A program made the translations under genes and the position numbers. This document shows, one piece after another, positions 1,822 through 31,460 of a stretch of DNA of 64,000 nucleotides. Origin of the DNA: Dissulfurirhabdus thermomarina (GTDB lineage Bacteria; Desulfobacterota; Dissulfuribacteria; Dissulfuribacterales; Dissulfurirhabdaceae); assembly GCF_012979235.1 (NCBI RefSeq), contig NZ_JAATWC010000001.1:315001-379000 (forward strand). Direction: 5' to 3'. The notes below the pieces were generated by a model that saw only the letters and a program-made list of their open reading frames with translations, made no database searches and was not told the origin of the DNA. Position 1 is the stretch's first letter; each line of letters begins with the position of its first letter.

Positions 1822-3873
1822 TCACGTGTCCTCCTTTTCCACCGCCACGGCACAGAGCTTGAGCTCGGGGCAGCGGGCCACCGGGTCGCAGCGGCTCACC
1901 GTGAGGGCGTTCACCGGGGCCTCGTGGAAGTGAAAGTCGGCGTAGAGCTGGCCGGGGGCCACCCGCCGGCTCAGCCGGGCGAAGAAGACGCAGTCCCCCC
2001 GGCGGGAGCGGACCCGGACCCGGTCCCCCGGCCGGACCCCGATCCGCTCGGCGTCCTCCGGGTGGATCTCGATCCAGGGCCGGTCGAGTTCCCGGGCCAG
2101 GGTGGCGGAGCGGCGGCTCATGGTGCCGGTGTGGTAGTGGTGGTAGGCACGGCCGGTGATGAGGCGCAGGGGGTGGTCATCGGAGAGCGGATCCACGGGT
2201 TCCACGGGGCTGGCCGGCTCGAAGCGGCCCCGGCCGCGGGCGAAGCTGTACTTGTGGAGGTAGGGGGTCCCGGGATGGTCCCGGTCCGGGCAGGGCCACT
2301 GGAGCCCCCAGGAGTCGCGGAGCCGGTCGTGGTACATCCCGCCGTAGATGGGGACGAGGAGGCAGATCTCCTCCATGACCTCGGCGGGCGAGCCGTAGGC
2401 CATGGGGTGGCCCATTCGGGCGGCGAGGGCGCAGACGATCCGGTCGTCGGGCCAGGCCTCGCCCACCGGCTCGATGGCCTGGTGCATGAGCTGCACCCGG
2501 CGCTCCGAGTTGGTCACCGTGCCGGTCTTTTCGGCGAAGGAGGCGGCGGGGAAGACCACGTCGGCCAGCCGGGCCGTCTCCGTGAGAAAGAGGTCCGAGA
2601 CCGCCAGGAAGTCCAGCCCCCGGAGGGTGGCCTCCACCCGGCTGGAGTCGGGGTCGCTGCGCACGGGGTTCTCGCCCATGACGTACATGGCCCGGACCGC
2701 CCCGGCCGCGCCGCCCGCCTCCCCGGGGCCGTGGGTCATCTCCAGCAGGGCCAGGCCGGGCCGCTCCGGCAGCTTGACCCCCCAGGCCCGTTCGAACTTG
2801 GCCCGCACCGCCGGGTCGGCCACCGGCTGGTAGCCGGGGAAGACGTTGGGCAGGGCGCCCATGTCGCAGGCCCCCTGGACGTTGTTCTGCCCGCGCAGGG
2901 GGTCGACGCCGGTGAACTCCCGTTCCACGTGGCCCGTCAGCATGGCGAGGTTGGCGTAGGACTGGACGTTGGCCGTCCCGCAGACGTGCTGCGTCACCCC
3001 GAGGCAGTAGCAGATGACCGAACGCTGGGCCCGGGCGTAGATCCGGGCCGCCTTCAGGATCAGCTCCTTTGCCACCCCGGTCGCCTCGGCCGCCTGGTCG
3101 ATGTCCACCTGGAGGAGGTGGTCGCGCAGGGCGAAGAAGTTCTCGGTACGCATCTCGATGAAGAGGTCGTCGACGAGGTTCTCGTCGAGGATGGCGCGCA
3201 TGAGGCCGCTGGCCAGGGAGATGTCGGTTCCGGGCCGCAGCCGGAGGTGGATGTGGGCCCGCCGGGCCAGGGCCGTCTCGCGGGGGTCGACGACGATGAG
3301 GCGGGCGCCGCGGTCCACGGCGTCGAAGATGCGGCGGGCCACCTGGGGATGGGCCTCGGTGGTGTTGGAGCCCGCCACCAGGATGACCTCGGCCTCCTCC
3401 AGCTCGTTGATGGAGTTGGTCATGGCCCCGCTGCCGAAGGTGGTGGCGAGACCCGCCACCGTGGGGGCGTGTCAGAGCCGGGCGCAGTGGTCGATGTTGT
3501 GGGTGCCGAGCACCGCCCGGGTGAAGCGCTGGAGGAGGTAGTTCTCCTCGTTGGTGCACTTGGCCGAGGCCAGGACGCCGATGGCGTCCGGGCCGTGGCG
3601 TTCCTTCGCCCGGGCGAGCCCGTCGGCGGCCCGGTCCAGGGCCTCGTCCCACGAGGCCGGCCGGAGGCGCCCGTTCCGGCGCACGAGGGGCCGCGTGAGC
3701 CGGTCGGGGTGGTGGATGAACTCGTGGACGTGCCACCCCTTGGCGCAGAGGTTGCCGCGGGAGACGGGGTGGCGCCGGCTCGGAGCCACGCCGGTCACCC
3801 GCCCGTCCTCCACCTGGAGGTAGAGGCCGCAGCCGCAGCCGCAGTAGCAACAGACGCTCATCACATGGCGCAT
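1822..3873 (-). CDS. fdhA: Formate dehydrogenase alpha subunit, selenocysteine-containing
   Basis: A molybdenum/tungsten bis-MGD enzyme oxidising formate to CO2. The reading frame is interrupted by one TGA (3474-3472), read here as Sec134, for a 683-residue product. The site sits in CARL-U-HAPTVAGLA, which matches the FdhF active-site context where Sec ligates the metal and is followed by the catalytic His. The N-terminus has the [4Fe-4S] ligands CCYCGCGCG and CAKGW. Later motifs (GSGAMTNSINE, VVDPRET, YCLGVTQHVCG) and the C-terminal VRPGDRVRVRSRRG cofactor-binding domain are typical. A GGT-CT-loop SECIS hairpin follows the TGA directly. The start has GGGAGGT upstream. The gene lies 85 bp downstream of nrdJ, so it may share the met-nrdJ transcript or have its own weak promoter. 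Confidence 0.95.
3442..3474 (-). promoter_or_regulatory. Bacterial SECIS element for the fdhA Sec codon
   Basis: The TGA at 3474-3472 is followed by 11 nt and then a perfect 7-bp stem, GGTGGCG (3460-3454) pairing with CGCCACC (3448-3442). The stem closes a GGTCT loop (3453-3449). Spacing and the GGUCU loop match the SelB-binding SECIS of E. coli fdhF. The hairpin lies in coding sequence, so it constrains the codons for residues 139-144. Confidence 0.93.
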
Positions 3874-17222: not shown

Positions 17223-17696
17223 GGCCGTGGAGATTTTGACGGCCCGGCGGCCGGGGCGTCATTTCCCCGGGGTGCGGCCGGCGCCGGCGGACCCGGCTCG
17301 GGCGGGCCGCGGCCGCCATCGAGGCGTGATGGCCGCGGCGAAAAGGTTTCAGGGCAGATGGCGCAACAGAGATCGGCAAATGCACGGCATGGGGGTGTCG
17401 AGGAATGAGGAATGCTTGGCGCCGCCGCAATGACGAGGGCATCCGAGGCAGCACAGCAGTCGGCGTATTTTGCGACGCCATCAAGTTTCCATCGCGGGAT
17501 GTCGATAATACCTCCATGAACCGCCGAAGGGCGGAAACCGCTGCGGCGAGGAGGTCTTCCGGGGATGCACGGTTCTTGCTTTCCGTCCAGGGGACAGGGT
17601 CACCCGGCCGGGACACACGTCCTCGACTCCGGGTGCAGGCAGGGTTTCGAATTCGGTGGCCGATTTCACAACGTCTTGGGGAAAGGGGGTGAACTC
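17223..17696 (+). other. Intergenic stretch between recD2 and the cytochrome gene
   Basis: About 470 bp between divergent genes. It holds one copy of the 127-bp dispersed repeat (17357-17482) and a TAATAC hexamer at 17506-17511 with no matching -35. Short frames here have no coding signature, and I see no structured RNA. The promoter for the 17697 gene is presumably within it but not identified. Confidence 0.6.
17357..17482 (+). repeat. Dispersed repeat copy A (about 127 bp, inverted ends)
   Basis: Copy A of a repeat also found at 19732-19858 (opposite strand) and 63502-63628. It starts GATGGC and ends TTTTGCGACGCCATC; shared internal blocks are CGCCGCAATGACGAGGGCAT and ATCCGAGGCA. The ends are roughly inverted (GATGGC...GCCATC) and the halves are partly self-complementary, as in a MITE-like or hairpin-forming element. 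It encodes nothing. Confidence 0.8.
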
Positions 17697-17999
17697 GTGA
17701 GGAAGAGCCTGATTCTCGCGGTGCTCGGGGTCATGCTGACCGCCGCCGGCGCCATGGCCGGCCCGGCGGATCTCTTCGTGAAGACCTGCGGGCAGTGCCA
17801 CGTCAAGGGAGGGCAGGCCCCGCCGGTGAACCCGGCGGACAAGGCTATGTCGGTCTGGGAGAAGTACTTCAGGCGAGGCCGGCACCCGGTGGATCTTTCC
17901 GGAAAGATCAGCTCGGACCAGCTCCAGATCGTCGTCGAGTATCTCAAGGACCACGCGGCCGACAGTGACCAGCCGCTGGCGGCGGTCATCCCGAAGTAG
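17697..17999 (+). CDS. Small periplasmic monoheme c-type cytochrome
   Basis: A 100-residue protein with a signal peptide (MRKSLILAVLGVMLTAAGAM, cleavage after AMA) and one heme site, CGQCH at about residue 36. No second CXXCH is present; the distal ligand may be a Met (AMSVW) but this is unsure. The GTG start at 17697 has AGGGGGTG upstream. It lies 48 nt before the DUF3373 porin gene and probably shares its transcript, so it may shuttle electrons to or near an outer-membrane complex. Ext-type clusters in Geobacter relatives also pair small cytochromes with such porins. Confidence 0.88.
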   Translation: MRKSLILAVLGVMLTAAGAMAGPADLFVKTCGQCHVKGGQAPPVNPADKAMSVWEKYFRRGRHPVDLSGKISSDQLQIVVEYLKDHAADSDQPLAAVIPK

Positions 18000-18047
18000 G
18001 GGCGGCCACGCGCGGCTACGCAGCAACGAAATGCGGGAGGATATGAA

Positions 18048-19646
18048 ATGAAGCGCGTTTTGACGGCACTCATGGTGCTTTCGCTGACGGCCTGGTCCGG
18101 CTCCGCCCTGGCGGCCCGGGACGACCAGGTGACGCTGTCGGCGAAGAAGTTGAAGGCCGTGCTCGGAAAGGTGCTGGAACTCCAGCGCCGGGTCAGCGAC
18201 CTCGAGCACGGCAAGGCCCGCGGCGGGCCCTCGGAGGTGGAAAAGTCCGCCGCCATTCCGGAATACGACAAGCTCACCCGCGACATCGAGGAGATCTACG
18301 ACACCCTCGACAAGGTGGAGACCCGCGCCCTGCAGGACAAGGTCAATTTCGGCGTGGAGGTTCGCTCCCGGGTGGACTTCTTCAAGTACGAGGACGTCTG
18401 GACCTACACGGAGCCTGCGGCGAACCCCAACGCCCTCTTCGGTCTCGACCCGGGTGACATGGTGGACCACGTCTACCCGAACACCATCAACAGCGCGCGG
18501 AAGGAGTGGACGGCGGACAACAAGTGGAGCACCCGGGTGCGCCTCAACATGGAGGCCCGGGCCGCCAACAGCCTCACCTTCCACGGTCGGCTCGCGGTTT
18601 ACAAGAACTGGGCCGAGAGCGGCGACATCCAGCGCAACGTCGACTTCTACCGGGCCCACCGGCCCGACGACACCACGGTGAAGCTCGACCGGGCCTACGT
18701 GGACTGGATCGTCCCCGTCCCCTTCCCCCTGGCCGTCACCTTCGGCCGGCATCCCTCCACCGAGGGGCCGCCCATGGAATACCGGGAAAACCTCCCCCGG
18801 CAGGCGACCTACCCCTCCCTGGTCTACGAGGGCGAGACCGACGGCATCGTGGTCACCCTGGGCCTCGAGCGCTACACCGGCCTCGTGAACTCGGGCCTCC
18901 GCCTGGCCTACGGCAAGGGCTACCAGCAGGACGAGTCGGGCTACTCCAACTTCACGGCCTTTGGGTCCCGGGCCAGCGGCATCAAGGACACCAACTTCTG
19001 GGCGGCCTTCTTCGAGACCGAGGTGCCCTACGTGCCCGAGAGCCTCCTGGTGTTGAGCTACATCCACGGAAACGACCTCATCGACAACCCGGCCGGGCCC
19101 CAGGCCAACCTGGGGAACATGGACGTCTACGGCGCCCACCTCCAGATGTCGAACTTCCTCGACACCGGGCTCGACCTCTTCGTCTCGTGGGGGCTCAACA
19201 ACGCCGATCCGAAGAAGCGGGCCGGCCAGTACGCCACGACACAGATGTACTTCATCAACCCGGCCACGGGGCTGCTCACCACCATGCCGGTGGGCCTCCT
19301 CGGCACCCAGGGGAGCAAGTGGGGCTGGGCCATCTACACCGGCTTCCGCTACACCGTCCCGGTGGACGCCCTCAAGCGGCCGAAGATCGGCTTCGAGTTC
19401 AACTACGGAAGCCCCCACTGGTTCTCCTTCACCTGGGGGAGCTCCGATCCCTACAACAAGCTCGCCACCCGGGGCAAGGCCTACGAGGTCTACTACATCC
19501 AGCCCTTCAACCGGTACCTCTTCATCCGGACGGGCTATACCAAGATCAACTACAACTGGAGCTTCAGCGGCTACCACCTCGGCGAGCCCTGGAAGATCGA
19601 CGAGAACCTGTCGAACTTCTACGCCCTCTTGGACGTCCGGTTCTAG
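18048..19646 (+). CDS. extI: DUF3373-type outer-membrane porin, ExtI-like
   Basis: A 532-residue outer-membrane beta-barrel: a signal peptide ending SALAARDD, a short coiled-coil (KLKAVLGKVLELQRRVSDLE, residues about 38-57), then a long run of alternating strands and a terminal Phe (LLDVRF). Conserved-looking pieces are DKVNFGVEVRSRVDFFKYED, FGRHPSTEGPPMEY and YGAHLQMSN. DUF3373 proteins are found with multiheme cytochromes in Desulfobacterota, and ExtI of Geobacter is a porin of this kind, tied to selenite/tellurite reduction. The symbol rests on this resemblance and on the neighbouring Rieske, cyt b and cytochrome genes. A strong terminator follows. Confidence 0.8.
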   Translation: MKRVLTALMVLSLTAWSGSALAARDDQVTLSAKKLKAVLGKVLELQRRVSDLEHGKARGGPSEVEKSAAIPEYDKLTRDIEEIYDTLDKVETRALQDKVNFGVEVRSRVDFFKYEDVWTYTEPAANPNALFGLDPGDMVDHVYPNTINSARKEWTADNKWSTRVRLNMEARAANSLTFHGRLAVYKNWAESGDIQRNVDFYRAHRPDDTTVKLDRAYVDWIVPVPFPLAVTFGRHPSTEGPPMEYRENLPRQATYPSLVYEGETDGIVVTLGLERYTGLVNSGLRLAYGKGYQQDESGYSNFTAFGSRASGIKDTNFWAAFFETEVPYVPESLLVLSYIHGNDLIDNPAGPQANLGNMDVYGAHLQMSNFLDTGLDLFVSWGLNNADPKKRAGQYATTQMYFINPATGLLTTMPVGLLGTQGSKWGWAIYTGFRYTVPVDALKRPKIGFEFNYGSPHWFSFTWGSSDPYNKLATRGKAYEVYYIQPFNRYLFIRTGYTKINYNWSFSGYHLGEPWKIDENLSNFYALLDVRF

Positions 19647-20012: not shown

Positions 20013-21815
20013 TCAGGGGCGTGCCGCGGCGGGCGCGTGGCGGCAGGGGCGCGGCATGCGCCCGGGGCGCCAGGCCCGCATCACCGGGTCCCGGAGGTCC
20101 CGGTGGCAGGGAAGGCAGAGCCCCACGTCCAGGACGCGGCGGATCTCGTCTCGGCCCAGGGGGCGAAGGTCCGGCCGGGAGGTGTGAACCAGGGCGGTGC
20201 CGTTCGCGTCCACGAAGGCGTCCAGGGGGTGGTCGATCCCGAGGAGGCGGGGCCGGGCGGCCAGGGCGGGGGTGAAGGCCCAGCCCCCGGGCCCCCGGTG
20301 GAGGCTTCCCTCCCCGAGGCCCAGCGCCCGGGGGGTCTGGTGGCAGTCGGGGCAGCTCCGGCCCTTGGGCTGGGTGGTGTGGGGGTCCATCCACGAGACC
20401 GTGAGCCGCACGAAGTCCTTTTCCCATCGGCCCCTGTGATCCAACAGGGAGACAAAGTCCTGTCACCCGGGGACGAGGATCACCACCTCGTCGCCCTTGC
20501 GGCCGAGAGGCGGGCTCTCGTGGCGCATGAAGGAGCGGAATTCGCTCCACCGGCCCGGCGTCTCCCGGGCGGCCACCTTGTCCAGCATGGCCTGGCTCCG
20601 GTCCGCCCGGACGTGGCAGCCGTAGCACTGGGGGACCCAGGTGCTGTGGCAGGCCTGGCAGGAGAGGCGCCGGTGGAGGGGCCCCCGGCAGGCCGCGGGG
20701 TCGGGCGGGTCGAGGGGGTGGAGCTTCCGGTCCCGCCGGCCTTCCAGGAAGAAGGCCGTTCCCTTGGCCACCACGTCCAGCCGGGGCGGCGCCCTCTTGA
20801 CCTGCACCCCGGAAGGGGGGCCGAGGCCCCGCTTCCGGAGGGCGTAGGCCTCGGCCAGGGGGCGGAGGGCCTCGCCTCCGGCGTGGCAGGTGACGCAGCG
20901 GACCTCCAGCTGTTCCTCGAAGTGGACGTGGCGCGTGCCGTCGCCCATGGTTTCGCGCTGGGTGTGGCAGTCCACGCAGGCGAGGCCCTTACGGTGGTGG
21001 ACGTCGTCGGGCATGGACCGGACGTAGCGGCCGTCCTCGAGCTGGTGGGTCCCGAGGTCGCCCGCCTCGTACGGCGTGCCGTAACCCTCCGATTCCATGA
21101 GGCCCTGATACGAGAGGCCGATCCGGCCGCTCCGGTTGTGGCAGCGGACGCAGTTTTCGAGGGGGGCGTCCCGGGTGATCCGGGTATGGGCCCGCTCCCG
21201 GGGTGTGTCCGGTTCGGGCTTCTCCTGGTGGCACGCGGTGCAGCCGCCGCCCTTGGCGGCCAGGAAATCCGGCAGGGAGCCCTTTTCCATCCAGAGGTGG
21301 CAGCTGCCGCAGAGCTTCCGGAAGTAGTCCAGGGCCGGGGAGGTAAGGCCGGAGCGGGCCAGGCCGTGCACGGTGAGGTCCTCGGCCCCCGGTCCGGCGG
21401 ATTCACCCCAGTAGGTGCGAAGTGCGTCGATGATGCCCCGGTTGGTGGCCATGAGGGAGTTTTCGACCCACCGGAGCTGGTTCGGGTGGCAGCCCGCCTG
21501 GCCGCAGGTGCGGGGGCCGAGGCGGAGTTCGCCGGGGTTCTTCACCATACCCCGGTGGGCGCGGGTCTTGTCGCCGGCCAACGGGTCGCCCAGGTGGCAG
21601 GCGGCGCAGCCGAGGACGTCCCTGGCGTGGGCGCCCCCGGGATCCTGCCGGTGGCACCCGAGGCAGAGGTCCACCTGGCCAGCGGTGGTCCGGGTCACCG
21701 TGGGCGGCGGATGGTCCAGGGCCGGGACGCCTGCGGGGGGCGCCGCGGCGGCGGTCGAGAGCCATGCCAGCATCAGGGCGAGGCAGAGGAGGGCCGGGGG
21801 GCGGTTCGGGGGCAT
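20013..21815 (-). CDS. extKL: Multiheme c-type cytochrome with predicted selenocysteine (ExtKL-like)
   Basis: A periplasmic 12-heme cytochrome, 600 codons if the in-frame TGA at 20465-20463 is read as Sec451. The signal peptide ends TAAAAPP. Heme motifs before the TGA: CLGCH, CAACH, CGQAGCH (CX4CH), CGSCH, CTACH, CVRCH, CVDCH, CVTCH, CQACH and CYGCH. After it, in the same frame: CPDCH and CLPCH. The site reads ILVPG-U-QDFVS. A SECIS-like hairpin follows at normal distance, and no ribosome site or good start exists after the TGA, so two genes are unlikely. A nonsense mutation is the alternative. GAAGGAGGACGCC precedes the ATG. It is last in an operon with Rieske and cyt b genes, matching ExtKL-type modules; the name is from memory. 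Confidence 0.78.
20431..20465 (-). promoter_or_regulatory. Candidate SECIS element in the multiheme cytochrome gene
   Basis: After the TGA (20465-20463) come 12 nt, then a 7-bp stem TCCCTGT (20450-20444) with ACAGGGG (20437-20431, one U-G pair) closing a 6-nt loop TGGATC. Loop guanines 21-22 nt after the UGA fit the bacterial SECIS pattern (short upper stem, G near the loop start). It is less canonical than the fdhA element because it lacks GGUCU. Confidence 0.65.
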
Positions 21816-21826
21816 GGCGTCCTCCT

Positions 21827-22642
21827 TCACCGGAGCCAGGCCACGGCGGTGAGCACGAGGTAGCTGGCCCCCCAGAGGCCGAGCAGCCACCAGAGCGGCC
21901 GCCGTGCCCGGGCGAGCGGCATGAGCCCGAGGGCCGCCACGGGGACGGCGGGATAGACGACCCCGGCCGCCAGGGGCGGAAGATGCCGGAGCAGCTCCTG
22001 CACCGCCAGGAAGAACCAGGGCCCGTGGATGAGGTCCGGCGCCGCCCCGGGGGCGTCCATGGGGGCACGGACGAGAGCGGCCGCCGCCCCCGTGACCCCG
22101 AGGATCAGGGCGAGCTCCCTCCGCCCCACCAGGACCCGGCGCGTGTGGTACCAGGTGCCCAGGCCCCAGAGGAGGGCCGTCAGGAGGTAGTGGACCACGT
22201 AGACCCGGTTCAGCCCCTCCAGGGACACGGCGAAGAGGAGCCGGTCCAGGGCCGGCCCCGCCACGGGCACGGCGAGGGCCAGGTGTTCGGCCACGGCCCC
22301 GGCGGCGAGCCCCGTGGCGTCGGCCCGGAGGACGTAGCCGGTAAACAGCGCGAGAACTCCCATGGGCAGCAGCGCGACGAGCAGCCACCATCGCCCGTTG
22401 TGCTGGCGGTCCAGGGTGGCCTCGTCCAGCATCTGCCAGGTGTGGACGAGGAGGAGCAGCACGAAGGCCTGGCTCGAGTAGAAGTGGAGGGCGCGCCAGA
22501 ACCCGCCGAAGGGCAGGAGGGCGTCGATGGCCACGGCGGAGCCGAAGGCATCCGCCGCCTCGTAGTGGTAGGCCACCACGAAGCCCGAGCCGGCCGAGAC
22601 CAGGAGGGCCGCGGTGGCCAGCTCCCCCCACCGCCGGCTCAT
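21827..22642 (-). CDS. extP: b-type cytochrome membrane subunit (ExtP-like)
   Basis: A 271-residue integral membrane protein with about seven hydrophobic segments. Its N-terminal half resembles cytochrome b6: paired histidines lie in LHFYSSQAFVLLLLVHTW and in RVYVVHYLLTALLW...TWYH, placing two hemes b across the membrane. The ATG overlaps the Rieske stop (ATGA) and the gene is followed 11 nt later by the multiheme cytochrome. A Rieske-cyt b-cytochrome c arrangement suggests quinol oxidation with electrons delivered to the periplasmic cytochrome. The C-terminal segments may correspond to a subunit IV-like part. Confidence 0.82.
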   Translation of the reverse strand: MSRRWGELATAALLVSAGSGFVVAYHYEAADAFGSAVAIDALLPFGGFWRALHFYSSQAFVLLLLVHTWQMLDEATLDRQHNGRWWLLVALLPMGVLALFTGYVLRADATGLAAGAVAEHLALAVPVAGPALDRLLFAVSLEGLNRVYVVHYLLTALLWGLGTWYHTRRVLVGRRELALILGVTGAAAALVRAPMDAPGAAPDLIHGPWFFLAVQELLRHLPPLAAGVVYPAVPVAALGLMPLARARRPLWWLLGLWGASYLVLTAVAWLR

Positions 22643-23040
22643 CCGAGCCCCCTGGGGATCACCACCGCGTAGCCGCCGTCCTCGAGGCGCCGGACCCCGA
22701 GCCGGGGCAGGTCCTTCTTGGCCGGCCCCGAGACGTAGCGGCCGTCCCAGGTGAACCGGCTCTGGTGGCAGGGGCAGATGAAGCCGCGCTCCACCGGGTG
22801 GTAGGTGATCCGGCAGCCGAGGTGGGGGCAGCGGCGCGAGACGGCCATCGGCCCGGCCTCGGTCTCGAAGAGGCAGAAGTCGGGCTCGAGGAGGTACTGC
22901 CCGGGCTTGAGCTCCTTCCGGATGCGCACCGTCCGCGGCGGGCGGACCCGGTCGGTGGTGACGAAGGCGGCGAAGGGGTAGAGCCCGAGGACGCCCAGGG
23001 CCCACCCCGCCGCCCGCTTCAGCCAGTCGCGGCGGGTCAC
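22639..23040 (-). CDS. extO: Rieske [2Fe-2S] protein (ExtO-like)
   Basis: About 133 residues: an N-terminal TRRDWLKRAAGWALG segment that looks like a twin-arginine signal/anchor, then a Rieske domain with both cluster motifs, CPHLGC and CPCHQSRF, and the usual FTWDGRYVSGPA and DLPRL loop. It would oxidise quinol together with the cyt b encoded next. I prefer the GTG at 23040, which overlaps the upstream stop (GTGA) like the other junctions here; an ATG at 23055 adds five residues. Neither has a clear ribosome site. Confidence 0.85.
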   Translation of the reverse strand: MTRRDWLKRAAGWALGVLGLYPFAAFVTTDRVRPPRTVRIRKELKPGQYLLEPDFCLFETEAGPMAVSRRCPHLGCRITYHPVERGFICPCHQSRFTWDGRYVSGPAKKDLPRLGVRRLEDGGYAVVIPRGLG

Positions 23041-23258
23041 TTGCGAAGGATCCATAGGAGGAGGGTGAGGAGGGCGCTCAGGAGGAGCGAGGTGGCCAGC
23101 GGGAAGTAGAAGGTGAAATTTCCTTTCCGGATGAGGATGTCCCCGGGCAGGCGGCCGATGAAGGAAAGACGCGAGCCGGCCATGAGGAGGAGCCCCACCA
23201 CCGCCACGGCCGCGCCGAAGAAGAGGAGCAGCCGCCCGATCTCGCCCAGGGGGTTCAC
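23037..23258 (-). CDS. DUF2905 family small membrane protein
   Basis: A 73-residue protein with two hydrophobic segments flanking SRLSFIGRLPGDILIRKGNFTFYFP, the hallmark of DUF2905, followed by LLLSALLTLLLWIL. Function unknown. The GTG start overlaps the queH stop (GTGA) and has GGGAGGG upstream; its own stop overlaps the Rieske start. It is often found as an orphan housekeeping gene, so its place between queH and the redox genes may be incidental. Confidence 0.85.
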   Translation of the reverse strand: MNPLGEIGRLLLFFGAAVAVVGLLLMAGSRLSFIGRLPGDILIRKGNFTFYFPLATSLLLSALLTLLLWILRK

Positions 23259-23845
23259 GCCGCCCTCCCCGCGGCCGGCGCCGCCAGCCGCCGGCGGAGC
23301 CGCTCGGCCCGGGCCGCGTAGCGCTCGCCCTCGCTGAAGAGGCAGCCGCAGTAGGGCTGCCGGTAGATGCCGAGGGCCCTCGCGGCCTCGATGCCCGCGG
23401 CCCAGCCCTCGCGGAAGTCCTCGTAGTGAAAGGCGACCCCCGCCTCTCGGGCCGCCGCCTCGCCCGCGGCCCGGATCTCGGCGTGCCGCTGGTAACGGCT
23501 GTAGAGCAGGGTGGTGCTGAAGGCCGGGAACCCGTGTGCCTTCGCCGCCGCGGCCGCGGCGGAAAGCCGCAGCCGGTAGCAGGCCGGGCACCGCCGGCCG
23601 GGATCGGTCTCCGGCCCCACGGCCTCGAACCACCGGTGCAGGTCGTAGCCCTCCGGAGCCCAGAGGACCGGGAGCCCGAGCCGGTCCGCCACGGTCTCCA
23701 TGGCCTCCACCCGGCGCTCGTACTCGCGGAAGGGGTGGACGTTGGGGTTGAAGAAGTGCCCCGTCACCTCGAAACCCTTGGCCCGTAGGCGTTCCAGCGG
23801 GTAGAGTGTGCAAGGCCCGCAGCACGTGTGAAGGAGGAGCCGCAT
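23255..23845 (-). CDS. queH: Epoxyqueuosine reductase QueH
   Basis: A 196-residue Fe-S enzyme for the last step of queuosine tRNA modification, replacing QueG. The start MRLLLHTCCGPC carries the first cysteine pair; DPGRRCPACYRLRL and YCGCLFSEGERY carry the others. The ATG at 23845 abuts the divergent mutY ATG (23844) within one CATG. No ribosome site is present, but a strong promoter ends 7 nt before the ATG, so the mRNA is probably leaderless. It heads the operon leading into the DUF2905, Rieske, cyt b and cytochrome genes. Confidence 0.92.
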   Translation of the reverse strand: MRLLLHTCCGPCTLYPLERLRAKGFEVTGHFFNPNVHPFREYERRVEAMETVADRLGLPVLWAPEGYDLHRWFEAVGPETDPGRRCPACYRLRLSAAAAAAKAHGFPAFSTTLLYSRYQRHAEIRAAGEAAAREAGVAFHYEDFREGWAAGIEAARALGIYRQPYCGCLFSEGERYAARAERLRRRLAAPAAGRAA

Positions 23846-24992
23846 GGCGGAGATTTTAAGGACCCCGGACGGGGGGGTCAACCTCGCTCGCTGGCGGGCC
23901 GCGGCCCCCGGCGTGGCGGCCCGGCTCGCCGGGTGGTTCGACGGCGCCCGGCGGGACCTCCCCTGGCGCCGCCACCGGACCCCCTGGCGTACCTGGGTCT
24001 CGGAGGTGATGCTCCAACAGACCCAGGTGGCCAAGGTGGTGCCCTACTTCGAGCGGTTCTGCGCGGCCTGGCCGGACGTCGCGGACCTGGCCGCCGCCCC
24101 CCTCGAGCCGGTCCTGAAGGCCTGGGAGGGGCTCGGTTACTACGCCCGGGCCCGGAACCTCCACCGGGCGGCCCGGGTGGTGGCGGAGCGCCACGGCGGC
24201 CGGGTGCCGGACGACCTCGACGCCCTCCTGGCCCTCCCGGGGCTCGGCCCCTACACCGCCCGGGCGGTGCTCAGCCTGGGCTTCGACCGCCCGGTGGCCG
24301 TCGTGGACGGCAACGTGGGCCGGGTGCTGGCGCGGCTGGCCGCCGTGGATCGCCCCCTTCGCCCGGGCGCCGACCCCGAGATCTTCCGCCTGGCCGAGGT
24401 CCTGTTGGACCGCGCCGCCCCCCGCCGCCACAACGAGGCGCTCATGGAGCTCGGGGCCCTGGTGTGTCGGCCGGGCCGGCCCGCGTGCGGCGCCTGCCCC
24501 CTCTCCCCCGTCTGCCTGGCCCGCCGCCGGGGGCGGGCGGCGGACCTCCCCCGCCGCCCGCCCCGGCGGCGCCGGCCGCACCTCCAGGTGACCGCTGCCT
24601 TCATCCGCGACGGCGCCGGCCGCATCCTCATCACCCGCCGGCCCCTCGACGGGATGCTCGGGGGACTCTGGGAATTCCCCGGCGGCAAGCGCGAGCCCGG
24701 GGAGTCGCTCGAGGCGTGCATCCGGCGCGAGATCCGGGAGGAACTCGGGGTCCCGATCCGGGTCCTCGGGCCCCTCGTGACGGTCCGCCACGCCTACACC
24801 CATTTCTCCATAGAGCTCCACGTCTTCCGAGCCGAGATCGCCGCCGGGACGCCGCGCCCCCTCCAGTGCCTGGACCTGGCCTGGGCCGCGCCGGGCGAGC
24901 TGGAGCGTTACGCCTTCTCCGGGGCGGACCGGAAGGTGCTTGCCGCCCTGGCCGCCGGGCAGGGACCGGCGGCCGCCGGCGCATCGAGGTGA
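23844..24992 (+). CDS. mutY: A/G-specific adenine glycosylase
   Basis: A 382-residue DNA repair enzyme removing adenine mispaired with 8-oxoG. The N-terminal helix-hairpin-helix domain shows SEVMLQQTQV (catalytic Glu), LPGLGPYTARAV and VDGNVGRVL (catalytic Asp). The [4Fe-4S] loop is CRPGRPACGACPLSPVC. The C-terminal NUDIX-like domain (GGLWEFPGGKREPGES, REIREELG) reads the oxoG strand and looks intact, even keeping a Nudix box. The ATG at 23844 follows AAGGAGGAGC. It is divergent from and overlaps queH. Confidence 0.95.
   Translation: MAEILRTPDGGVNLARWRAAAPGVAARLAGWFDGARRDLPWRRHRTPWRTWVSEVMLQQTQVAKVVPYFERFCAAWPDVADLAAAPLEPVLKAWEGLGYYARARNLHRAARVVAERHGGRVPDDLDALLALPGLGPYTARAVLSLGFDRPVAVVDGNVGRVLARLAAVDRPLRPGADPEIFRLAEVLLDRAAPRRHNEALMELGALVCRPGRPACGACPLSPVCLARRRGRAADLPRRPPRRRRPHLQVTAAFIRDGAGRILITRRPLDGMLGGLWEFPGGKREPGESLEACIRREIREELGVPIRVLGPLVTVRHAYTHFSIELHVFRAEIAAGTPRPLQCLDLAWAAPGELERYAFSGADRKVLAALAAGQGPAAAGASR
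23853..23881 (-). promoter_or_regulatory. Predicted queH-operon promoter giving a leaderless mRNA
   Basis: TTGACC (23881-23876), 17-nt spacer, TAAAAT (23858-23853), then 7 nt to the A of the queH ATG. It is near consensus and lies inside the first codons of mutY on the other strand. Initiation at the ATG would explain the absent ribosome-binding site. Confidence 0.6.
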
Positions 24993-28690: not shown

Positions 28691-29731
28691 TCAGTCCCGG
28701 GCCACCTGCCGCCGGCGGGCCTTCAGGAGGTAACAGAAGAAGGGACCGCCGACGAGGGTGGTCAGCACGCCCACGGGGAGTTCTTCGCCCCCGGGCAGGA
28801 GGTTCTTGGCGAGGAGGTCCGACCCCGCCAGCATGAGGGCCCCGGCCAGGGCGGCGGCGCCGAGCAGCGGCCGGTGCGACGGGCCCTGGACGAGCCGCAC
28901 CATGTGGGGCGCCACGAGGCCCACGAACCCGATGACGCCGCTCACCGAGACCGCGGCGGCGGTGACGAGGCAGGCGGCGGCGAGCAGTACGAGGCGCACC
29001 CGGTCCACCGGGACGCCGAGGTGGCGGGCCTCCAGGTCGCCGAGGGCCAGGATGTCGAGCTCCCGCCCGTAGGCCAGGAACAGGGCCAGGCCGGCCGCGG
29101 CGTAGGGGAGGAGGAAGAGGACGTGGCTCCAGCCCCGGCCGCCCACGCTCCCGAGCATCCAGTAGACGATGGCGGCCAGGCCCTGGTCGTCGAGGCTCTT
29201 CATGAGGCCGATGAGGGCCGAGAGGAAGGTGCTCACCACGATCCCGGCGAGGATCAGGGTGGCGGGCCGGAGCGTGCCGTCCACGCGGGCGAGGTGAAGC
29301 ACCACCGCGAGCGCCGCCAGCCCCCCGGCCATGGCGAAGAGCGGCAAGAGCCCGAGCCCCATGAGGGCGGTGCCCGCCCCCGCCCCGAGGAAGAGGGCCG
29401 CGGTGGCCCCGAAGGCGGCGCCGGTGGAGACGCCGAGGGTGAAGGGATCGGCCAGGGGATTCCTGAGCAGCCCCTGGAAGACGGCCCCCGAGGTGGCCAG
29501 CGACGCCCCTACCAGGGAGGCGAGCAGCAGCCGGGGCAGCCGCACGTCCAGGACGATGGTCCGGACCTCGGGAGGCGGGGGCGGCCCGGTGCCGGCCAGC
29601 GCCGCCGCCAGGCGCAGGATCTCCGCCCAGGTCACCGGGTAGCGCCCGTACCAGAGCCCGAAGACCAGGAGGGCGAGGTAGAGGGCGAGGAGGCCGCCCC
29701 AGGCGAGGAGGCGGCGCGGGGCGGCGGGCAT
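28691..29731 (-). CDS. FecCD/BtuC-type ABC transporter permease
   Basis: A 346-residue permease with about nine to ten membrane segments. ASLATSGAVFQGLLRNPLADPFTLGVSTGA and FVGLVAPHMVRLVQGPSHR are the classic FecCD landmarks. It pairs with the ATPase 3 nt downstream. No substrate-binding protein gene lies nearby, so the binding protein must be encoded elsewhere. The start is unsure: ATG at 29731 or 29761, neither with a clear ribosome site. Confidence 0.91.
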   Translation of the reverse strand: MPAAPRRLLAWGGLLALYLALLVFGLWYGRYPVTWAEILRLAAALAGTGPPPPPEVRTIVLDVRLPRLLLASLVGASLATSGAVFQGLLRNPLADPFTLGVSTGAAFGATAALFLGAGAGTALMGLGLLPLFAMAGGLAALAVVLHLARVDGTLRPATLILAGIVVSTFLSALIGLMKSLDDQGLAAIVYWMLGSVGGRGWSHVLFLLPYAAAGLALFLAYGRELDILALGDLEARHLGVPVDRVRLVLLAAACLVTAAAVSVSGVIGFVGLVAPHMVRLVQGPSHRPLLGAAALAGALMLAGSDLLAKNLLPGGEELPVGVLTTLVGGPFFCYLLKARRRQVARD

Positions 29732-29802
29732 GGCGGGTGAACGCTGTGCTCGGGGGCGCATGGCACGATCCGGGCGGCCGCGGAGAGGCGCCGCCGGCCC
29801 CC

Positions 29803-29866
29803 AGCATACCCCAAGGCCGCCGGCCCCCGCATCCCCCGCGCCCCGCGGCCGGGGTTGTGGTATGCT
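29803..29866. repeat. 12-bp inverted repeat between divergent transporter genes
   Basis: AGCATACCCCAA (29803-29814) and TTGTGGTATGCT (29855-29866) are inverted copies with one mismatch, 40 bp apart, between the FecCD-type permease and the MFS gene. Each half contains TATGCT, a possible -10; the plus-strand copy is TGGTATGCT, an extended -10. The pair may be symmetric promoters or a regulator site. Confidence 0.5.
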
Positions 29867-29942
29867 CTTCCCCGGCGGCCGGCGGCCCGGTGCGCCTCGC
29901 CGGGCCGCGCCGCTTTCGCCTATGCCGGGTGCACTTCCTTCC

Positions 29943-31460
29943 ATGATGCAGCGCCTTCGCCGGCACCGCCTCTTCTGGGTGGGCGTCCTCTACTTCGCCC
30001 AGGGACTCCCCTTCGGCCTCTTCTACGACACCTTCCCGGTCTACTTCCGGCAGCGGGGCGTGGACCTCCAGGAGATCGGGGTCTTGAGCCTCCTGGGCCT
30101 CGCCTGGACCCTCAAGTTCCTCTGGGCCCCGGCGGTGGACCGGGTCCGGGGCCACCGGCGCTGGATGTTCGCCGCGGACCTCGGCATGGGGCTGGTCCTG
30201 GCCGCCTTCGCCGCGCGGGCCGGCGTGGGGCCGTGGGCCCTCGCCCTGGTGGCGGGTTTCACCGTGCTGTCGGCCACCAACGATATCGCCATCGACGGCT
30301 ACACCATCGAGCTCCTCCCCCGGCGGGAGTTCGGCCGCGCCAACGGCCTCCGGATCGGCTTCTACCGGGTGGGGCTCCTGGCCGCGGGGACGGTCCTCAT
30401 GCTGGTGGACCACGTCGGCTGGACGGCGGCCTACCTCGCGGCGGGGGGGCTGGTGGCCCTCCTGGGCCTTGCGTGCCTGGCGGCGCCCCCGGAGCGGGCC
30501 CCGGCCGCCGCCGGGAGGGGGGTCCGCGCCGCCGTGGAGCTTCGGGCCATCGCCCGGCGGCCCGGGGCGGCGGCCATCGTCGCCGCCTTCCTGTGCGGGG
30601 CGGTCTGGCTCGCGGACCGGGCGGCGGGCTGGTCCCAGGGGCATCCCGGCTTCTGGGGATGGGTCCTGGCCGCGGCGGCCCTCCCCGTGGCGGCCTCGGC
30701 CGCCTGGCGGGCCCTTTCTCCCGGCGGAGACGGGACGGCGTCCGTGGACATCACCCGGGGCCCGGTCTTCGGGGCGCTCTTCGAGATGCTCCGGCGGCCG
30801 GGCATCGTCCCGGTGGTGCTCTTCATCCTCACCTTCAAGCTGGCCGATACCTCCATGGGCTTCATGATCAAGCCCTTCTGGGTGGACTGCGGATTCTCCC
30901 CCGGCCAGATCGGGCTCGTCTCGGTGAACATCGGCATCGGGCTGTCCATCCTGGGGGGGCTGGCGGGGGGATGGTTCACGGACCGGGTGGGGGTCTTCCA
31001 CGCACTCTGGATCCTGGGGCTCGCCCAGGCGGTCTCCAACCTGGGCTACGCGGCGGCGGCCTTCGTCGTGCCGGCGGCCGGGGACGGGGCCGCACCCGCC
31101 CTCGCCCACCGGGCGGTGATGTACGGGGCCAGCGCCCTCGAGTCCTTCACCGGGGGGCTCGGGACCGCCGCCTTCCTGGCCTTCCTCATGGCTATCGTGG
31201 ACAAGCGGCGATCGGCCACCGAGTACGCCGTCCTCTCCTCCGTCTTCGCCCTGAGCCGTTCCGTGGCGGGATGGGCGGGTGGCTACGGCGCCGCCGCCCT
31301 GGGCTACGGGCCGTACTTCCTCCTGACCTTCTTCCTGGCCTTCCCGGCCTTCGCCTTCCTGCCGTGGGTGCGGCATATGCTACACTATGCGGCCGTGCAG
31401 CCGGAATGGGGCCAGGGCGGGGGAGGCCCGGCCGAAGCAAGGATAGGAGGCGACGAATGA
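29943..31460 (+). CDS. MFS transporter, AmpG-like
   Basis: A 505-residue transporter with about 12 to 14 hydrophobic segments. FAQGLPFGLFYDTFPVYFR near the N-terminus and ATNDIAIDGYTIELLP in the first half are hallmarks of the AmpG/acetyl-CoA transporter (PAT) branch of the MFS. AmpG imports anhydromuropeptides for peptidoglycan recycling; the exact substrate here is not certain. The start is one of two tandem ATGs with no strong ribosome site. Its stop overlaps the next gene's start. Confidence 0.88.
   Translation: MMQRLRRHRLFWVGVLYFAQGLPFGLFYDTFPVYFRQRGVDLQEIGVLSLLGLAWTLKFLWAPAVDRVRGHRRWMFAADLGMGLVLAAFAARAGVGPWALALVAGFTVLSATNDIAIDGYTIELLPRREFGRANGLRIGFYRVGLLAAGTVLMLVDHVGWTAAYLAAGGLVALLGLACLAAPPERAPAAAGRGVRAAVELRAIARRPGAAAIVAAFLCGAVWLADRAAGWSQGHPGFWGWVLAAAALPVAASAAWRALSPGGDGTASVDITRGPVFGALFEMLRRPGIVPVVLFILTFKLADTSMGFMIKPFWVDCGFSPGQIGLVSVNIGIGLSILGGLAGGWFTDRVGVFHALWILGLAQAVSNLGYAAAAFVVPAAGDGAAPALAHRAVMYGASALESFTGGLGTAAFLAFLMAIVDKRRSATEYAVLSSVFALSRSVAGWAGGYGAAALGYGPYFLLTFFLAFPAFAFLPWVRHMLHYAAVQPEWGQGGGGPAEARIGGDE

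Follow-up and report, generated by a model that had tools for sequence, protein, structure and literature searches.

We identified in Dissulfurirhabdus thermomarina an exported twelve-heme cytochrome c in which an in-frame UGA, codon 451, is almost certainly inserted as selenocysteine (Sec), judging from comparison with its relatives. The cytochrome is very probably the partner of a Rieske/cytochrome b pair encoded beside it, and we lean towards Sec451 acting at heme 10. Taken together, Sec insertion, the Rieske/cytochrome b partnership and action at heme 10 form a reading that we consider reasonably probable. The cytochrome apparently represents an undescribed selenoprotein family – though Sec-containing multiheme cytochromes are already known.

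An in-frame UGA in a twelve-heme cytochrome gene

A first-pass annotation of the window – the whole 64-kb stretch of DNA analyzed here – described a frame with ten heme motifs, a TGA and two further motifs. We confirmed the frame, the position of the TGA and the motifs (Table 1). The open reading frame runs on the minus strand from an ATG at 21815 to a TGA stop at 20015-20013, and its hydrophobic leader ends, by eye, in an AXA-type site. The twelve heme motifs comprise eleven CXXCH motifs and one CX4CH motif (CGQAGCH, residue 104). Ten begin before the TGA (residues 51, 70, 104, 169, 192, 222, 280, 307, 386, and 397) and two after it (residues 488 and 567), placing residue 451 between hemes 10 and 11 as originally annotated. 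GC content by codon position is nearly equal on the two sides of the TGA (0.73/0.55/0.93 before vs 0.77/0.57/0.93 after), which argues that coding continues past it. The same genome encodes a paralog with nine CXXCH motifs (L002, G000:C1:240202-240885), whose match to the Sec cytochrome is confined to residues 52-287.

Table 1. Features of the Sec cytochrome gene and of the genes upstream of it, in window coordinates.
Feature	Position	Strand	Details
Exported twelve-heme cytochrome c gene, ExtM-like	20013..21815	-	600 codons, UGA read as predicted Sec
Heme 12 motif CLPCH, residues 567-571	20103..20117	-	After TGA; Cys/Cys/His invariant in alignment
Heme 11 motif CPDCH, residues 488-492	20340..20354	-	After TGA; Cys/Cys/His invariant in alignment
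bSECIS-like hairpin TCCCTGT(TGGATC)ACAGGGG	20431..20450	-	7-bp stem
In-frame TGA, predicted Sec451 (VILVPG-U-QDFVS)	20463..20465	-	Codon 451
Heme 10 motif CYGCH, residues 397-401	20613..20627	-	Before TGA
Ribosome-binding site AAGGAGG	21821..21827	-	Sequence
Cytochrome b subunit, 271 aa	21827..22642	-	PF00033 53.1 bits; ends 11 bases before cytochrome c start codon
Rieske [2Fe-2S] protein, twin-arginine-like leader	22639..23055	-	PF00355 41 bits
Small membrane protein, DUF2905-like by eye	23037..23258	-	Upstream of Rieske
queH	23255..24034	-	PF02677 201.9 bits; first gene of conserved locus

To examine codon 451 across the family, we scanned bacterial and archaeal genome contigs and found 80 relatives at 44-61% identity; none were found on plasmid records. 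Adding members found in whole genomes of the phylum brought the set to 106 distinct core genes, in which the codon aligned to 451 is TGA in 47 and a cysteine codon in 59 (35 TGC, 24 TGT). The annotation had named the VPG-x-Q position as the place where homologs should carry Cys or TGA, and had held that homologs with neither would count against Sec; among the 106 core genes there were none. Neither of its other two contrary outcomes, reads with a sense codon or frame decay past the TGA in related strains, was encountered. This exclusivity supports its main reading of a Sec-encoding UGA. Within an 81-row alignment, which takes in two Geobacter-type ExtM sequences (31% identity), P449, G450, residue 451 (U/C), and Q452 are invariant. 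The site is also Cys (GCQ) in 20 more distant paralogs, where heme 10 reads C[YF]GCH.

The chance that the TGA instead reflects misassembly, a pseudogene stop or codon reassignment is negligible. Independent assemblies yielded 46 more distinct genes with the same TGA, and the downstream sequence is conserved without other stops in nearly all of them (identity among Sec members is 59% before the TGA and 55% after), which rules out sequencing or assembly error and a pseudogene stop. General reassignment of UGA is likewise ruled out, since ordinary TGA stops end the Sec cytochrome and both upstream genes.

The genome encodes tRNA-Sec, selA, and selB, bearing out the earlier claim that this organism decodes Sec. 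The Sec formate dehydrogenase on which that claim drew is present, with its TGA at 3472-3474 on the minus strand (...CARLUHAPTVAGLATTFGSGAMTN), and is a second selenoprotein gene within the window. All 42 carrier genomes tested contain selB, the presence of which is thus common to Sec and Cys carriers and does not separate them. Three genomes of the same order have a second, lower-scoring selB-like gene (G029:C11, G101:C1:1461339, and G365:C127).

Maximum-likelihood analysis placed the Sec genes in a single group that also holds two Cys genes (L013 and L017); the group's sister, mostly Desulfobulbales, has Cys throughout, as do the outgroups. The simplest reading is that Sec was gained once and reverted to Cys twice; this count is provisional, because the tree comes from a quick search and both Cys revertants sit on long branches. 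We note that these natural reversions within the Sec clade (L013 / L141 and L017) combine Cys codons with a broken hairpin register.

The hairpin itself had been annotated as a 7-bp stem with a TGGATC loop, and both are present. Taken singly, its 46-nt fold is unexceptional against shuffles (z -0.66), and the Rfam SECIS models gave no match. Across relatives, the hairpin is kept in 47/47 TGA genes and is weak or absent in Cys genes. The best stem within 48 nt from the TGA onward averages 7.1 bp in the 47 TGA genes vs 3.2 bp in 58 distinct Cys segments, and the loop in TGA genes begins near nucleotide 22 and is usually TGGAT or TGGAC.

We observed further signs of conserved pairing in the order-level Sec group, where 85% of stem cells pair in a single register (30 genes). 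Sliding the register by one to three lowers this to 44-66%, and in the Cys clade the figure is 33%. Pairs that covary in this group include 20-28 (T-A/C-G) and 17-31 (C-G/G-C/T-A). The D. thermomarina hairpin is shifted by one base relative to the order-level register and has a six-base loop; relatives from Thermosulfurimonas and Thermodesulfatator have a hairpin of different sequence at about the same place. Against synonymous-codon shuffles, Sec genes gave a median per-gene p of 0.18 vs 0.83 for Cys genes (mean z -0.97 vs -0.31), with most individual genes short of significance. The case for a putative SECIS element is therefore one of comparative pattern across relatives and not of single-gene folds. 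By that comparison, the hairpin just 3' of the UGA would recruit SelB with Sec-tRNA, so that the UGA is passed.

Low selenium commonly brings termination at Sec codons, and the stretch that ends at the TGA is itself a complete reading frame encoding ten hemes. The gene could on these grounds have two functional products, a ten-heme form when selenium is scarce and a twelve-heme Sec form when it is plentiful. We regard this as very improbable: the full length is always encoded in Cys relatives, and hemes 11 and 12 show no substitution at their Cys and His residues. A gene caller that treats UGA as a stop would truncate at least 47 distinct genes of this family.

The Rieske and cytochrome b genes

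The Rieske, cytochrome b, and Sec cytochrome genes of D. thermomarina form an overlapping or near-overlapping run, in which the Rieske stop overlaps the cytochrome b start (ATGA). A c-type cytochrome is here encoded with Rieske and cytochrome b subunits, the gene content of a bc-type complex. The small membrane protein upstream of the Rieske gene also occurs at the Rieske/cytochrome b locus of relatives, and the order queH-small membrane protein-Rieske-cytochrome b is kept in two of them (L189 and L191) and partly in a third (L190); queH is probably unrelated in function to the locus. On the other side, a small c-type cytochrome gene followed by a DUF3373 gene (17565-19646, plus strand) is convergent with the Sec cytochrome gene. 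Elsewhere in the window, an ARAGORN tRNA-Ala call (30435-30518, plus strand) falls inside a long open reading frame (29730-31460), MFS-like by eye, and is probably a false positive.

The gene run is not general, since the cytochrome gene lies away from Rieske/cytochrome b in many relatives, and outside the thermophiles we found no general conserved neighborhood for it. A cytochrome b of the matching type was nonetheless present in 35 of the 35 carrier genomes tested, in several of them within the queH-small membrane protein-Rieske-cytochrome b locus. A tally of core-family cytochromes (567 bits or more) and of cytochrome b (E 1e-20 or better) in 395 genomes of the phylum gave identical sets of 50 genomes – a match that depends on the 567-bit cut and in which genomes that share ancestry are not independent. 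The cut was set from the score list, in which the entries that follow, from 544 bits down, are ExtM and other distant paralogs.

The two genes thus appear, from their distribution, to be inherited as a unit. Because of this strict co-occurrence and of the gene run in D. thermomarina, we consider it very probable that the dodecaheme cytochrome partners Rieske/cytochrome b. It would serve a Rieske/cytochrome b quinol oxidoreductase as its partner for electron transfer in the periplasm; in such a partial complex III, the multiheme protein would replace cytochrome c1 within a putative physical complex.

We also compared the gene's distribution with that of dsrA, which was present in 49 of the 50 carriers (D. 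thermomarina included) vs 13 of 30 sampled non-carriers (p 1.7e-8, a value that overstates independence because carriers and non-carriers are kin). The hosts of relatives include Thermosulfurimonas, Desulfocapsa, Desulfobulbus, and cable bacteria. The partnership would give selenium a place in a core step of respiration, from Rieske/cytochrome b to a multiheme cytochrome, in sulfite-reducing and sulfur-disproportionating bacteria.

Residue 451, heme 10, and candidate chemistry

We next considered where residue 451 sits. In a predicted model of the full protein (pLDDT 85), it lies in the PG-U-Q turn between strands 443-449 and 454-458, part of a beta-rich insert that separates hemes 10 and 11. 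Three ExtN sequences are informative about this site: they keep heme 9, H479, and heme 11, and have lost both the Cys and heme 10, with EYGTFY or PYGTFY in place of the heme 10 motif and VRPEF, IRPQF or LPRF-like sequence in place of the Cys site. This joint loss, probably one evolutionary event, links the Cys/Sec to heme 10, and on the strength of these alignments we favor, with some reserve, Sec451 acting there.

Six non-motif histidines (H63, H87, H210, H273, H381, and H479) are invariant in the 81-row alignment, as are M122, M290, and K167, and a seventh histidine, H298, is found in 78 of the 81 rows. Twelve hemes outnumber the six invariant non-motif histidines, which leaves some hemes with an open site or in need of a different ligand, and residue 451 is a candidate. 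Sec451 would work with heme 10 as an axial ligand or as a redox or nucleophilic residue beside an open iron. Cys would do the same job in relatives, with Sec tuning the site rather than creating it. The more specific proposal that the Sec451 selenolate is a natural axial ligand of heme 10 in a bc-type complex, replaced by a cysteine thiolate in relatives, strikes us as unlikely. Natural homologs allow Cys and Sec to be compared at one residue, probably beside a heme.

Two other non-heme cysteines are conserved, Cys376 (79/81) and Cys591 (78/81), and Sec451 might form a selenenylsulfide with one of them, serving as a structural or regulatory redox switch and not at a heme. The PGCQ motif is, however, kept in both ExtM sequences, though both lack Cys376 and one lacks Cys591, and we consider such a switch improbable.

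If Sec451 acts at heme 10, its most likely role would be electron exchange, with the heme chain on one side and either a sulfur species or a thiol partner protein on the other, in a setting of sulfite-reducing or sulfur-disproportionating metabolism – the weakest step of the proposal. The guess of a sulfur substrate comes from which organisms carry the gene, and sulfur-compound chemistry at Sec451 is a tentative suggestion, with the balance somewhat against it.

A somewhat unlikely alternative makes the cytochrome a periplasmic reductase and not a conduit, with Sec451 in its active site and a chalcogen oxyanion or a sulfur compound as substrate (selenite, tellurite, polysulfide, thiosulfate or sulfite). 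The nearest named family is ExtM, whose gene belongs to the Geobacter ext cluster, and an extI mutant of that cluster shows a defect in reducing selenite/tellurite (PMC5877670). VIA-align matched the full model to a single structure above Z 2, the octaheme cytochrome 1sp3 (Z 7.6, rmsd 4.4 A, 250 aligned), a match within VIA-align's stated noise range. The strict Rieske/cytochrome b link is explained no less well by electron transfer, scores of the family are far under the ExtM cut-off, and we found no evidence for reduction by ExtM itself.

Other structural searches returned little. Foldseek of the full model against the PDB gave nothing at E below 1, and the isolated Sec domain model (pLDDT 77, pTM 0.54) had no structural match above Z 3.3. 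For the whole protein, sequence searches of the PDB gave only marginal matches, to stretches with heme motifs, and for the Sec domain they gave no match of note.

Relation to known cytochrome and selenoprotein families

We compared the Sec cytochrome with a May 2026 inventory of prokaryotic selenoproteins, which includes the families of an mSystems 2025 study of novel selenoprotein neighborhoods. The inventory covers 119 families and subfamilies; its heme-related entries are ExtKL, a GSU2204-type protein, and the octaheme tetrathionate-reductase family, the last listed as a GenBank-annotated selenoprotein family (PMC13188914). Neither an ExtM-like cytochrome nor a PG-U-Q cytochrome motif is among its entries, and its VPGUxxT entry is a thioredoxin-like protein (PMC13188914). 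A search of openly accessible published full texts found no further Sec-containing cytochromes.

ExtKL (NF040886, 5-heme) resembles the Sec cytochrome in being a multiheme c cytochrome of the same phylum with a conserved Sec in a G-U motif. Its Sec, however, lies in IPDG-U-PTPNR and it is a separate protein family, so that both profile and Sec motif reject membership. The octaheme tetrathionate reductase family (TIGR04315) likewise consists of multiheme cytochromes with Sec in many members, but there the Sec is in NNF-U-INI before a CTSCH heme motif; profile and motif again reject membership, and TIGR04315 has no match in the D. thermomarina genome. HmcA (NF045713) was rejected at 22.7 bits vs a cut-off of 400.

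Seven genes recovered in our searches (L169, L173, L174, L179, L180, L183, and L185) are octaheme tetrathionate-reductase-like, with an in-frame TGA in NNF-U-INI or a motif close to it, immediately ahead of a CTSCH heme motif. Many ExtKL members of the phylum likewise contain a TGA. About 30 such members with an internal TGA occur in the 395 genomes of the phylum, which indicates that Sec in multiheme cytochromes is frequent there. The earlier remark that Sec is rare in cytochromes thus needs qualifying, given these members and the ExtKL and octaheme Sec forms already listed (PMC13188914).

The best NCBIfam match is ExtM (NF040943), at 267.7 bits vs a cut-off of 800. With a score so far under the cut-off, the Sec cytochrome is a divergent ExtM relative and not ExtM. 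ExtM is one cytochrome of a conserved Geobacter cluster with Rieske and cytochrome b, described as a bc complex (PMC2825233, PMC5877670). Geobacter ExtM (GSU2935) shares with the Sec cytochrome twelve hemes, 31% identity over its length, a PG-C-Q site, and the association with Rieske and cytochrome b genes (PMC2825233, PMC5877670), but has Cys at the site where the D. thermomarina protein has the predicted Sec. The partner cytochrome b is 26-27% identical to ExtP-like proteins of two ExtM genomes. The gene neighborhoods differ: the Sec cytochrome gene is flanked by Rieske/cytochrome b/queH and the convergent DUF3373 gene, and ExtI, ExtKL, ExtN, and ExtS do not adjoin it. ExtKL and ExtN have no match above cut-off in the D. 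thermomarina genome.

Cable bacteria provide a further parallel. In a recent model for these organisms, a partial complex III (Rieske + cytochrome b) hands quinol electrons on to periplasmic cytochromes, and the multiheme partner is not named there (PMC13047784). Their PetAB-like partial complex III is the same kind of gene pair as that of D. thermomarina, and Electrothrix and Electronema carry the Cys form of the cytochrome (L052, L056, L057, and L069). From this co-occurrence, the Cys-form cytochrome is a candidate partner of the cable-bacterial partial complex III – one that we propose as its missing cytochrome.
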